From an uncultured Slackia sp. (GTDB taxonomy: Bacteria; Actinomycetota; Coriobacteriia; Coriobacteriales; Eggerthellaceae), in the NCBI RefSeq assembly GCF_944321625.1, contig NZ_CALUMA010000047.1, positions 1-64,000 on the forward strand: 64,000 nucleotides of DNA, given 5' to 3'. The notes under the pieces were generated by a model. The model was not told where the DNA came from. It saw only the letters and a program-made list of their open reading frames with translations, and made no database searches. Shown piece after piece: positions 13,901 to 40,365 of this stretch. Each line of letters begins with the position of its first letter. The stretch's first letter is position 1. The position numbers and the translations under genes are program-made.

Positions 13901-14986
13901 TCATCGACTACACATCGCTCTGTCTTTGATCCTGACGGACTGGAGATAATCACCTTTCAGCAAGTTTCTCAGCCTTTCGTTTCTCTTCTTGAAATCGCTC
14001 ACTCCTGGCTGAAGCCTGAACTTAAGTTCTTGCCGAAGACCATTAACTAGATCCCAGAATTTCAGCGATGAAGACATCGTCACACGCGTCGCAACGTGAA
14101 CCGAATATCCCGACGCAGCCAATATCCTCGCCTTTCTTGCATCCTTCTCGACACCCTCACGAGTGAAATGAGTTTCGTCTCCGTGATACTCAAGAATGAC
14201 CTTTCCAGCATCTCCCCAAACCAAGTCACATTCAAAGTAAGGCAGTCCGCGCGCATCCCAGCGCACTCCACCGCCAGATGGAACAAGAGACGGATCAATG
14301 AAAATCGGACAATTGAGAGCGGGCTTAGGCATTGAGCAGCCTCCCAATCGATACGGCAAGGTGAGCGCCATCGTCAAAGACGATTCCATCGGGGAGCGGC
14401 TTCTCTCGATAATATAGGGGAGGGCTCTCGTGGCTACTTTGATGCCTTTCAATGCGCGAACATGTTTGAAGTCTTGAAGCTGTTCGATATACGTCGACAG
14501 GTTTGCGACAGTGGTCAGAGGCGAACGGCGCGCCAAGTTCCTCTTTTCACCTCGCAATGTCGGACTGTTTTCGCCCAAGGATGCATCAAGGGCAAGTGGC
14601 TCACGCGAAAATATGCCACAGAGCATCATTCCGAAGTGAATCAGCTGTTCGACCGTGAGATGTCGTGCCATTTCTACATAGCTCAATTCAGGAGACACGA
14701 CGAATGTATCGTCTGCAATTTGGAATAATGAACCAGGCGGAAGCTCCCCCGAATGAACGTGGCACACCCCCTCCTTAAGCGTACGCCTCAACTCAGGTTT
14801 CGTAACAAGCACATGAAGCCTATCGAATGCGCACTTCGGCAGAAATCTTTTCATTCTCTCGATATCACGCTCGCAAAGGGGCGAGTCGAGACATGTCGAC
14901 AAACCCCGTCGAGCATTCGGGTACGACGCGGAATGATACGACTCCCAGAAAAGCGCAGCGGATATGTCTGAAAGAATGATCGCCAT
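13901..14986 (-). CDS. Orphan PD-(D/E)xK-nuclease-like protein, copy 1
   Basis: 361 residues from the ATG at 14986, chosen by alignment with the paralogue at 38934-39962 (both begin with a short stretch then FW near residue 13). The two share SPELS.-EM, LCG, RSRSPME, LPY..GG..-P.P.LN and FECDLVW. The last block, with Asp254 in ECDLVW and Glu266 in VILEYHGDETH, resembles the D...ExH/Q core of Vsr/DUF559-type restriction-endonuclease folds; a conserved DARK follows. No methylase, toxin or transposase is adjacent. The gene is less GC-rich than its neighbours, suggesting transfer. An 11-nt repeat array lies upstream. No strong ribosome-binding site is visible. Nuclease activity is an inference from motif spacing. 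Confidence 0.65.
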   Translation of the reverse strand: MAIILSDISAALFWESYHSASYPNARRGLSTCLDSPLCERDIERMKRFLPKCAFDRLHVLVTKPELRRTLKEGVCHVHSGELPPGSLFQIADDTFVVSPELSYVEMARHLTVEQLIHFGMMLCGIFSREPLALDASLGENSPTLRGEKRNLARRSPLTTVANLSTYIEQLQDFKHVRALKGIKVATRALPYIIERSRSPMESSLTMALTLPYRLGGCSMPKPALNCPIFIDPSLVPSGGGVRWDARGLPYFECDLVWGDAGKVILEYHGDETHFTREGVEKDARKARILAASGYSVHVATRVTMSSSLKFWDLVNGLRQELKFRLQPGVSDFKKRNERLRNLLKGDYLQSVRIKDRAMCSR

Positions 14987-15079
14987 ACATGGAAGGCTAG
15001 TCCCTCGACGTTTTTCTCTCGCACAGCACCGACATTCTCCATAGTTGCCCACAGATTTGTTACCGTCACGTTTTACCTG

Positions 15080-15165
15080 GTCAGAAACGGGTCAGAAATA
15101 GGCAAGAAAACCGCAAGGTTGTGAGGGAATACTGGCAAGTTAGGAGCACGAACCGCAAGGTCACA
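15080..15165 (-). repeat. Degenerate 11-nt tandem array upstream of nuclease-like gene 1
   Basis: Eight consecutive units, seven of 11 nt and one of 9 nt. On the plus strand they read GTCAGAAACGG, GTCAGAAATAG, GCAAGAAAACC, GCAAGGTTGTG, AGGGAATACTG, GCAAGTTAGGA, GCACGAACC, GCAAGGTCACA. In the sense of the gene the units end in CTTGC or CTGAC. The array ends 94 bp before the proposed start codon. Confidence 0.65.
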
Positions 15166-38464: not shown

Positions 38465-38500
38465 GCTGGGCGCTGGGCGCTGGGCGCTGGGCGCTGGGCG
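38465..38500. repeat. 7-bp perfect tandem repeat (GGCGCTG, five copies)
   Basis: Five consecutive GGCGCTG units in the non-coding region upstream of the aldolase gene. It could vary in copy number between strains. Confidence 0.85.
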
Positions 38501-38569
38501 CTGAATTATCTTGCAGCCACGCTGCCGCCAAAGGACAATCACGCCTTCTCCATATGATGAAAATTCACC

Positions 38570-38689
38570 TCGTCAAATCCTTGCCGAAACCTTGCGCAAT
38601 CCCAATCAAACACTGCTGCAACCTTGCGGGATTCTTGCGGAACTCTTACCGCATTCTTGCCGGATTCTGGCCAATTCCTCGCCGAAACC
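38570..38689 (+). repeat. Degenerate 11-nt tandem array upstream of nuclease-like gene 2
   Basis: Eleven consecutive units, ten of 11 nt and one of 10 nt: TCGTCAAATCC, TTGCCGAAACC, TTGCGCAATCC, CAATCAAACAC, TGCTGCAACC, TTGCGGGATTC, TTGCGGAACTC, TTACCGCATTC, TTGCCGGATTC, TGGCCAATTCC, TCGCCGAAACC. A C run follows. The period is not a multiple of three. The consensus resembles the array upstream of the paralogous gene (15080-15165) in the same gene-relative orientation. The rest of 38294-38933 has no gene. Confidence 0.7.
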
Positions 38690-38933
38690 ACCCCCCCCCA
38701 CCAACCATGCGAAACGCCCACGAAGCGCATTCGCCCTCATGAAACGCACATCGGATTAGGAGACAACCCAGAACATCCACCATACACCGCTCTAAAGCCG
38801 TTTTTTGCCCGACAATCCACACAGGATTCCACTCACGATCCGCACGACATTTCGAGCAATATTCCACATTTCCCCAGATAGCAGACATATTTTATTCTCA
38901 GAATCGCAGCGAAATCTGTGATAGGATGCCGCC

Positions 38934-39962
38934 ATGTATCCACCGCTTTGCAACATATCAGCCGTCAAATTCTGGACCGCCTACGGCGCCCCCGACATGC
39001 CCACTGCATACCCAATCCCAACGCCCACGCATTTCGATCCGCCCGACAGCGAACTCATGCAACGGCTGCAATCGATTCCCGCCCTGCAGCTCGGGGAGCC
39101 GCTTCATTTTCTCTGCCGCGATTTAAAACAGCGCCGACATGCAGCAAACGTGATTTGCCATGCGCGTGAAGTCCTGCCTCCGAGACATTCCGTTTTCTCA
39201 TTTGGAAACGAATTATCCGTCGTCTCCCCTGAACTGAGCTTTTTGGAAATGGGGGCCGTCTATCCCGTTGAACGCCTTTCCCAATACGGCACTATGCTCT
39301 GTGGCAAATACGGAATTAAAACTGCAACTCAAGATGCCTCGTCGGTCAAGTCGACACGTTTCGACACCGACCTCTTCAAACGCACTCCCGTTACATCACG
39401 GGAGCTAGTCGAAAGCTACCTTGCCTCGTGCCACTCACTCCACGGAAGAACAATCGCACGCCGCGCGTTCCCCTACGTGTTCGACAGGAGCCGGTCACCC
39501 ATGGAAACGGCAACCGTCCTTTTGCTTTCGATGCCTTACCATTATGGCGGGCGAAACCTTCCTCAGCCGCAGCTGAATATCCCTGTTGCAATCAAGCAGC
39601 CCATGCAGGTTCGAAATTGGAATGGGTCGATTTCCGCGCTCGATGCTTTTGAATGCGATTTAGTGTGGCACTCAAAACGCGGCATTGTTGTGGTCGAATA
39701 CCAGGGCGAACTTGGTCATTCAGGTGAATCAAACATACATCGCGATGCCAGAAAACATAATGCGCTAGAAAACTCAGGCAGCAAAGTTCGAGCCTTAACC
39801 AAAGAAGCGCTCTTGGATTATGAGCTATTCACCGGGTTCGCGAACGACCTGGCCAAATTGCTTCGATGCTATCGGAAATCAAAACTATCCGACATAGACA
39901 AGCGGCAAAAGGCTCTACATCGATTACTTCTGGGTAAATACCTGACCATGCGGGTCTTTTAG
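38934..39962 (+). CDS. Orphan PD-(D/E)xK-nuclease-like protein, copy 2
   Basis: 342 residues, paralogue of 13901-14986. Shared blocks in order: VVSPELSFLEMG (96-107), YGTMLCGKYG, DRSRSPMETA (184-193), MPYHYGGRNLPQPQLNIP (200-217), FECDLVW (239-245) and VVVEYQGELGH (252-262), then HRDARKHNALENSGSKV. Asp242 and Glu255 with Gln257 give a D-x12-E-x-Q pattern compatible with a Vsr/DUF559-type restriction fold. AGGATG lies before the ATG. It is AT-richer than neighbouring housekeeping genes. An 11-nt array lies upstream and a cluster of TATTGAAC repeats downstream. The biological role is unknown. Confidence 0.65.
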   Translation: MYPPLCNISAVKFWTAYGAPDMPTAYPIPTPTHFDPPDSELMQRLQSIPALQLGEPLHFLCRDLKQRRHAANVICHAREVLPPRHSVFSFGNELSVVSPELSFLEMGAVYPVERLSQYGTMLCGKYGIKTATQDASSVKSTRFDTDLFKRTPVTSRELVESYLASCHSLHGRTIARRAFPYVFDRSRSPMETATVLLLSMPYHYGGRNLPQPQLNIPVAIKQPMQVRNWNGSISALDAFECDLVWHSKRGIVVVEYQGELGHSGESNIHRDARKHNALENSGSKVRALTKEALLDYELFTGFANDLAKLLRCYRKSKLSDIDKRQKALHRLLLGKYLTMRVF

Positions 39963-40085: not shown

Positions 40086-40365
40086 GAAGAGTTCAACACT
40101 CAAGCCAGATGCAGCTCATTGTCGAATGACGCAAGTATTGAACTCTTGAAGACGCGTTACGGGGAGCATTTCGTTATCCCCCGAATCACGACCAGGCATT
40201 ATGACATCAAAGAAAAGCCGTAAGAGCACATACATTGAGAATCAGAGTTCAATACTTGCGTCATTCGATAATCGACTGCACTTGAAGCAAGTATTGAACT
40301 CTGATCTGCATTTAGGTTGAGTATTGAACTCGTAGTTGCGTTTTGAATTTAGCATTGAACCGACA
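40086..40365. repeat. Cluster of TATTGAACTC repeats with a 25-nt perfect inverted pair
   Basis: 40122-40146 and 40244-40268 are exact inverted 25-mers around a 97-nt spacer. The core AGTATTGAACTC recurs in direct orientation at about 40288 and 40320, degenerately in inverted orientation at about 40089 and in direct orientation at about 40351. There is no gene in the whole gap 39963-40444. Confidence 0.75.

Follow-up and report, generated by a model that had tools for sequence, protein, structure and literature searches.

The window analysed here is a 64,000-nucleotide stretch of contig from an uncultured Slackia sp. It carries a nuclease-like gene (P0001) at positions 38,934 to 39,962 of the forward strand. 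The product is 342 amino acids in length and has a PD-(D/E)XK-like C-terminal half, in which residues D242, E255, H262, and D271 are conserved. The gene is one of nine copies in the 2.4-Mb genome, P0001 included, and the paralogs are 23 to 35% identical; compared with P0001 itself, the other members range from 23 to 33%. Relatives are present in 93 of the 119 Eggerthellaceae genomes at 1 to 16 copies apiece.

P0001 shares the D, E, and H residues and the strand-helix pattern of its C-terminal half with MTES_1575/DUF559-type PD-(D/E)XK proteins and AbiEi-like antitoxins, as well as an LSHxSALEYW-like N-terminus. It differs from them in that it passes no Pfam or NCBIfam model and shows weak structural matches only. 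The best profile match is the MTES_1575 REase (E of 0.05, 14.1 bits against a cut-off of 38.2), and assignment to the MTES_1575/DUF559-type nucleases was rejected on this basis. The predicted structure has pLDDT values mostly of 63 to 89 over residues 190 to 330 in the C-terminal half; it was built from three sequences only, which makes the N-terminal half uninformative. The best Foldseek matches of this model (R2 protein, cap-snatching endonucleases, and Can2) have E values of 3e-3 to 1e-2. Judged by the model, the label "nuclease-like" is fair, and the fold resemblance to PD-(D/E)XK-type endonucleases is weak.

Upstream of the gene, at positions 38,570 to 38,689, lies an array of approximately 11 operator-like units of 11 nucleotides with the consensus GGCAAGATTTC. 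The unit is read on the minus strand, so the array points away from the P0001 gene and is reverse-oriented relative to it. A single 1-nucleotide register slip occurs within the array. The lag-11 score, defined here as the matches of each base with the base 11 further on in 110-nucleotide windows, is 61 out of 99 at position 38,574. This is the top score in the 64 kb, where the background has a mean of 25.1 and a standard deviation of 4.4 and the runner-up score is 42. Among lags 5 to 29 apart from 11, the array scores at most 37, except for 48 at lag 22. TRF calls a repeat of period 11 inside the array, at 38,623 to 38,672. The array described in the initial annotation is confirmed, and 2000 shuffles of the intergenic region before the gene never exceeded a lag-11 score of 46.

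A putative −10 element, TAGGAT, was read from the sequence at positions 38,922 to 38,927 of the forward strand, 6 nucleotides before the ATG, with a TG upstream at 38,917 to 38,918. TGRTAnnnT boxes resembling it stand just 5’ of the ATG in other family members. The transcript of the P0001 gene is probably leaderless or near-leaderless.

Two further repeats flank the region. A perfect 7-nucleotide tandem repeat (GCTGGGC, 5.6 copies) at 38,465 to 38,503, which lies between the array and the promoter region of the aldolase gene, may be prone to slippage. Downstream of the gene, two 29-nucleotide inverted repeat arms (40,118 to 40,146 and 40,244 to 40,272) are approximately 100 nucleotides apart, with an ACCAGG motif between them.

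A paralog, gene 1, is located 24 kb away on the minus strand at 13,901 to 14,986 and encodes 361 amino acids. The products of the two genes are 35% identical (E of 4e-47). A weaker 11-nucleotide array lies upstream of gene 1 at 15,078 to 15,165 on the plus strand, likewise reverse-oriented relative to its gene. Its lag-11 score is 42 out of 99 at position 15,009, one of the runner-up scores of the window, and a 33-nucleotide sequence model of the array (R1) matches at 15,091 to 15,120 of the plus strand with an E value of 0.017. The paralogy, period, consensus, and gene-relative orientation that had been noted as common to both loci are thus confirmed. The start codon distances that had been compared (94 and 245 bp) are unsafe, because the likelier start codon of gene 1 is the ATG at 14,986, where the N-terminus aligns with the family, and not the GTG at 15,052.

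Arrays Across the Slackia Genome

The 11-nucleotide array is not confined to these two genes. A two-unit pattern with up to three mismatches has 81 matches in the Slackia genome, compared to one for a reversed control, and model R1 finds arrays at approximately 22 loci with E values below 0.02. A shared motif stands before most of the DNA-uptake and recombination genes of this one genome: comEA-comEC, comFC, yraN-comM-dprA, a prepilin peptidase gene, cpaB of the Flp pilus, recA, and rpsF-ssb. In the two Slackia genomes, dprA follows downstream in the operon of comM. Arrays are also present before genes for a RadC-like JAB protein and a SpaA-domain surface protein, before another AbiEi/DUF559-like gene, and before toxin-antitoxin-like genes (DUF4160, BrnT, an XRE protein, and two pairs of a short and a larger protein). 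Profile searches identified ComEA, ComF, YifB/ComM, UPF0102/YraN, the type IV prepilin peptidase, and RcpC/CpaB, while RecA, rpsF-SSB, and the RadC-like JAB protein were named by reading the sequence.

Several members have no proven link to competence. The toxin-antitoxin-like or adhesin genes behind several arrays count against reading the arrays as a competence operator, as does an array of approximately four units (G000:C44:4610-4662, L016) that stands beside two tRNA genes and is followed by no obvious protein gene. In Slackia, the toxin-antitoxin-like genes with forward arrays are at L017, L018, L026, L034, L036, L037, and L085, and such modules may be co-induced with competence. Forward arrays also precede secreted surface proteins (L247:3034-5136, L253, L096, and L108) in Slackia and two other genera; L247 and L108 contain SpaA prealbumin-like domains by profile, and the regulon may therefore extend to the cell surface or to aggregation.

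Within the nuclease-like family, four copies (L001, L002, L004, and L005) carry arrays, and L003 has partial units by reading. The remaining four of the nine (L006 to L009) have no array.

The initial annotation had proposed that gene and array form a functional or mobile two-part unit, a proposal that independent occurrence of the two would undermine. Such independent occurrence was found, since most of the approximately 22 arrays lie before unrelated genes and L006 to L009 lack an array. A mobile or selfish unit would account for the likeness of family, period, consensus, and orientation at the two loci and for the multicopy, patchy distribution of the family. It would also fit what is seen in five other Slackia genomes, in which neither the array nor the nuclease-like gene precedes the aldolase. 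At this locus gene and array are jointly present or absent, which does not imply mobility, and alignment with the five genomes yielded no clean empty site. Approximately 20 arrays at other genes and the family copies without one speak against such a unit, and orthologous arrays stay put at orthologous com genes between genera. The gene and its intergenic DNA have no match in 50,697 phage records, and the plasmid collection gave one distant match (24%, Collinsella). A mobile unit is highly improbable on these grounds. The functional part of the proposal fared better, as family arrays occur across genera with the reverse orientation kept. An operator of the aldolase gene was also considered and rejected, because the aldolase upstream regions of the same five genomes carry no array.

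Promoter Anatomy, Orientation, and Conservation

Eighteen forward promoters from two Slackia genomes share a proximal module, GGGAAAGGGTTTG-GCAAGGTTTGCAAGC-TAGNCT, with constant spacing. The GCAAG of the last unit is exactly 15 nucleotides from the TAnnnT −10 box in all 18, which were picked by this spacing; 15 of the 33 examined loci gave no module of the exact form, and at some of these the −10 box reads CAnnnT. The forward promoters have 11-nucleotide direct repeats whose distance to the −10 box is constant, as is characteristic of PHO-box-like operators of the OmpR/PhoB type. For the P0001 gene, the view that the array is more than a core promoter is correct; at the competence genes, the promoter-proximal unit does lie in the −35 region.

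Further units continue upstream in the same register. Strong units located 22 to 186 bp from the proximal unit were sorted by position modulo 11, giving counts of 23, 10, 0, 1, 0, 0, 0, 0, 0, 5, and 25 for registers 0 to 10 (14 promoters, orthologous pairs among them). Of these 64 units, 58 fall within one base of the register, five are at register 9, and one is elsewhere. One 11-nucleotide register is kept over about 170 bp. Unit clusters at approximately 77 bp and at 143 to 165 bp upstream correspond to multiples of 11 and not of 10.5, which suggests more than a placing of sites along the same helix face and argues for a row of protein with an 11-bp step.

The arrays could also be non-regulatory tandem repeats or sites resembling DNA uptake sequences, as they sit in a genome with competence genes. 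Known uptake sequences are present in hundreds to thousands of scattered copies. The arrays occur at only approximately 22 places, before genes, with fixed promoter spacing and register, and their motif drifts while period and place stay, so this reading is scarcely plausible.

Array orientation differs between gene classes. Counting core motifs exactly 11 nucleotides apart within 350 nucleotides upstream, the forward and reverse pairs number 29 and 0 for recA, 15 and 1 for comEA, and 1 and 40 for the nuclease-like family. The family count is the sum of two samplings (20 and 20 reverse, 0 and 1 forward) in which five regions were sampled twice, so that some pairs are counted double. One family gene in G003 has approximately ten consecutive ATCCAGC/ATCAAGC units upstream. 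In the Slackia genome studied here, L004 and L005 have forward, competence-type promoters instead.

With duplicates removed, 52 family upstream regions contain 13 reverse arrays and two forward arrays, and 37 have none. Long inverted repeats are found in 12 of the 52, in four cases alongside a reverse array. At 29 of the 52, a detectable array and a long inverted repeat are both missing, which counts against the competence-operator reading. The link of the family to the array regulon is real but partial. These long inverted repeats resemble the one downstream of the P0001 gene but differ in sequence from case to case, and they stand upstream of about one quarter of the sampled family genes in other genomes (for example L183, L188, L190, L191, L205, L221, and L223). 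Because the array of the P0001 gene is well upstream of the putative −10 element and not over it, we lean slightly toward activation from upstream, rather than repression, at this gene.

Arrays are found before the same genes in Slackia equolifaciens (G109) as in the present genome, and before comEA, cpaB, recA, ssb, or yraN in genera g13, g17, g21, and g42. The upstream regions of 30 recA and 29 comEA genes from Eggerthellaceae show self-similarity peaks at 11, 22, and 33 nucleotides only, with z values of 8 to 13. A control region further upstream shows the 3-nucleotide rhythm of coding DNA. Individually, 17 of the 30 recA and 16 of the 29 comEA regions have a lag-11 z above 2.5, compared to none of the 29 controls. 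A second, less similar batch has the array in four of 16 recA promoters. Outside Eggerthellaceae, at the level of the order, a clear lag-11 rhythm is present in four of 20 comEA promoters. Conservation at orthologous genes is thus strong in Eggerthellaceae and weak outside, and there is no more than a hint that the array is older than the family.

From genus to genus the motif drifts (GCAAGRTTY, GCTGGATTC/GCTTGA, GACGGTTTG, and others), with period and place unchanged. The motif types are GCAAGRTT/GCTGGATT/GACGGTTT. An exact three-unit pattern searched in 84,980 species returned three S. equolifaciens sites, one Methanosarcinaceae site, and one Streptomyces site, and the last two look like chance matches.

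A LexA-type box, GAACATNTGTTCG, lies by the core promoter of Eggerthellaceae recA genes (L111 to L140), separate from the array further upstream. In genus g3, a single lineage without comEA and dprA, the recA LexA box is kept and the recA array is absent. These observations bear on the alternative that the arrays mark not competence but a general regulon of DNA damage or stress. The recA, ssb, RadC-like, and toxin-antitoxin-like members would suit such a regulon. The comEA-comEC, comFC, comM-dprA, prepilin peptidase, and Flp pilus members are genes of uptake and transformation, and the LexA box that recA has downstream of its array persists without the array where com genes are missing. A damage or stress regulon is unlikely.

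A second alternative is that the nuclease-like proteins bind the arrays themselves, in the manner of AbiEi antitoxin autoregulation, and control the competence genes secondarily. It draws on the many family genes across genera that are marked by reverse arrays and on the very weak likeness of the family to actinobacterial MTES_1575/DUF559-type proteins. Against it, comEA arrays are present in genomes where the family was not detected (G033, z of 3.5, 86% complete; G084, z of 2.0), and diverged paralogs of one genome have one unit in common. Autoregulation by the family appears quite unlikely.

A Candidate Competence Operator and Its Relation to Known Systems

We consider it probable that the arrays are the operator through which a cooperatively binding regulator governs a regulon of natural transformation (competence) in Slackia and other Eggerthellaceae. 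The array, the regulon membership as judged by sequence, and the register, spacing, conservation, and orientation of the units are established. The row of 11-bp head-to-tail sites would be bound by one DNA-binding regulator. A forward array would enter a sigma-70-type promoter and take the place of the −35 region. As sites continue upstream in the same register for approximately 170 bp, binding may be cooperative and filament-like, and it would recruit RNA polymerase to comEA-comEC, comFC, yraN-comM-dprA, the prepilin peptidase and Flp-pilus genes, recA, ssb, and the accessory genes. The P0001 gene would be joined to the regulon by a reverse array that lies upstream of the promoter of the gene, from which a leaderless transcript putatively starts. 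From the DNA sequence, a single protein is expected to bind the arrays and to activate at the forward ones. The cells are predicted to be transformable, competence as a phenotype being read from gene content.

A more elaborate version of the competence operator is doubtful. In it, a polymerising regulator of a type new to Coriobacteriia, with an 11-bp pitch over approximately 180 bp, would read orientation. Forward arrays would switch on uptake and recombination, while reverse arrays would silence or re-time the large family of nuclease-like genes and so spare the incoming DNA. The motif would drift between genera together with its reader, with period and targets fixed.

Candidate regulators were sought by comparing OmpR-family proteins in eight genomes. 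Two groups occur in every com-bearing genome of this comparison and are absent from g3. They look like PhoB, next to phoU/pst, and a CoaX-linked regulator, next to coaX in other genera. Neither is a good candidate for the array reader, because the recognition helices stay conserved between genomes whose DNA motifs differ. A LytTR (ComE-like) operator was also rejected, as the only shared LytTR gene is found in com-less genomes too and does not co-occur with the arrays.

The literature searched contained no paper that joins Coriobacteri- with comEC, which is not proof of absence elsewhere. Papers retrieved for Eggerthella and natural transformation have other subjects according to their titles and abstracts. 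Genetics in E. lenta relies on electroporation, and the paper describing it does not mention competence (PMC9734109). An array-linked natural-transformation regulon looks undescribed in the literature searched.

With a target list, promoter spacing, and natural variants in hand, the regulator is directly catchable by DNA pull-down with an array of 30 to 180 bp. The operator also provides reporters with which transformability can be followed in gut Eggerthellaceae. That competence genes and the nuclease-like family differ in array orientation is a specific, testable oddity.

The closest likeness in architecture is to the PHO boxes of Streptomyces PhoP, which consist of 11-nucleotide direct repeat units (PMC7866108). 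As in PHO boxes of the OmpR/PhoB family, the Slackia arrays have 11-nucleotide head-to-tail units that stand in for the −35 region, with constant spacing to the −10 box. They differ in being far longer (up to 11 units, with a register of approximately 170 bp), in their consensus, and in standing at competence rather than phosphate genes; no OmpR-type regulator was assignable among the eight genomes compared.

In gene content, the regulon resembles the Bacillota competence regulons (ComK, ComX/SigX, and ComE), with which it shares comEA-EC, comF, dprA, recA, ssb, a radC-like gene, a pilus peptidase, and accessory genes. Bacillota competence operators are AT-boxes, the cin-box, and LytTR sites of 21 to 22 nucleotides, and the Slackia array architecture is unlike these. 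Slackia also differs in belonging to the class Coriobacteriia and in having a Flp pilus.

Flp-pilus-dependent transformation is described in Micrococcus luteus (PMC4322843), another member of Actinomycetota, in which comEA/EC are likewise found with Flp (tad) pilus genes. A 2026 paper on M. luteus states that the upstream competence signals and the regulatory cascade remain to be identified (PMC12849477). The control of competence in Actinomycetota is thus an open question on which the array operator bears. While no operator or regulator is known in M. luteus, the Slackia operator links uptake, pilus, and recombination genes.
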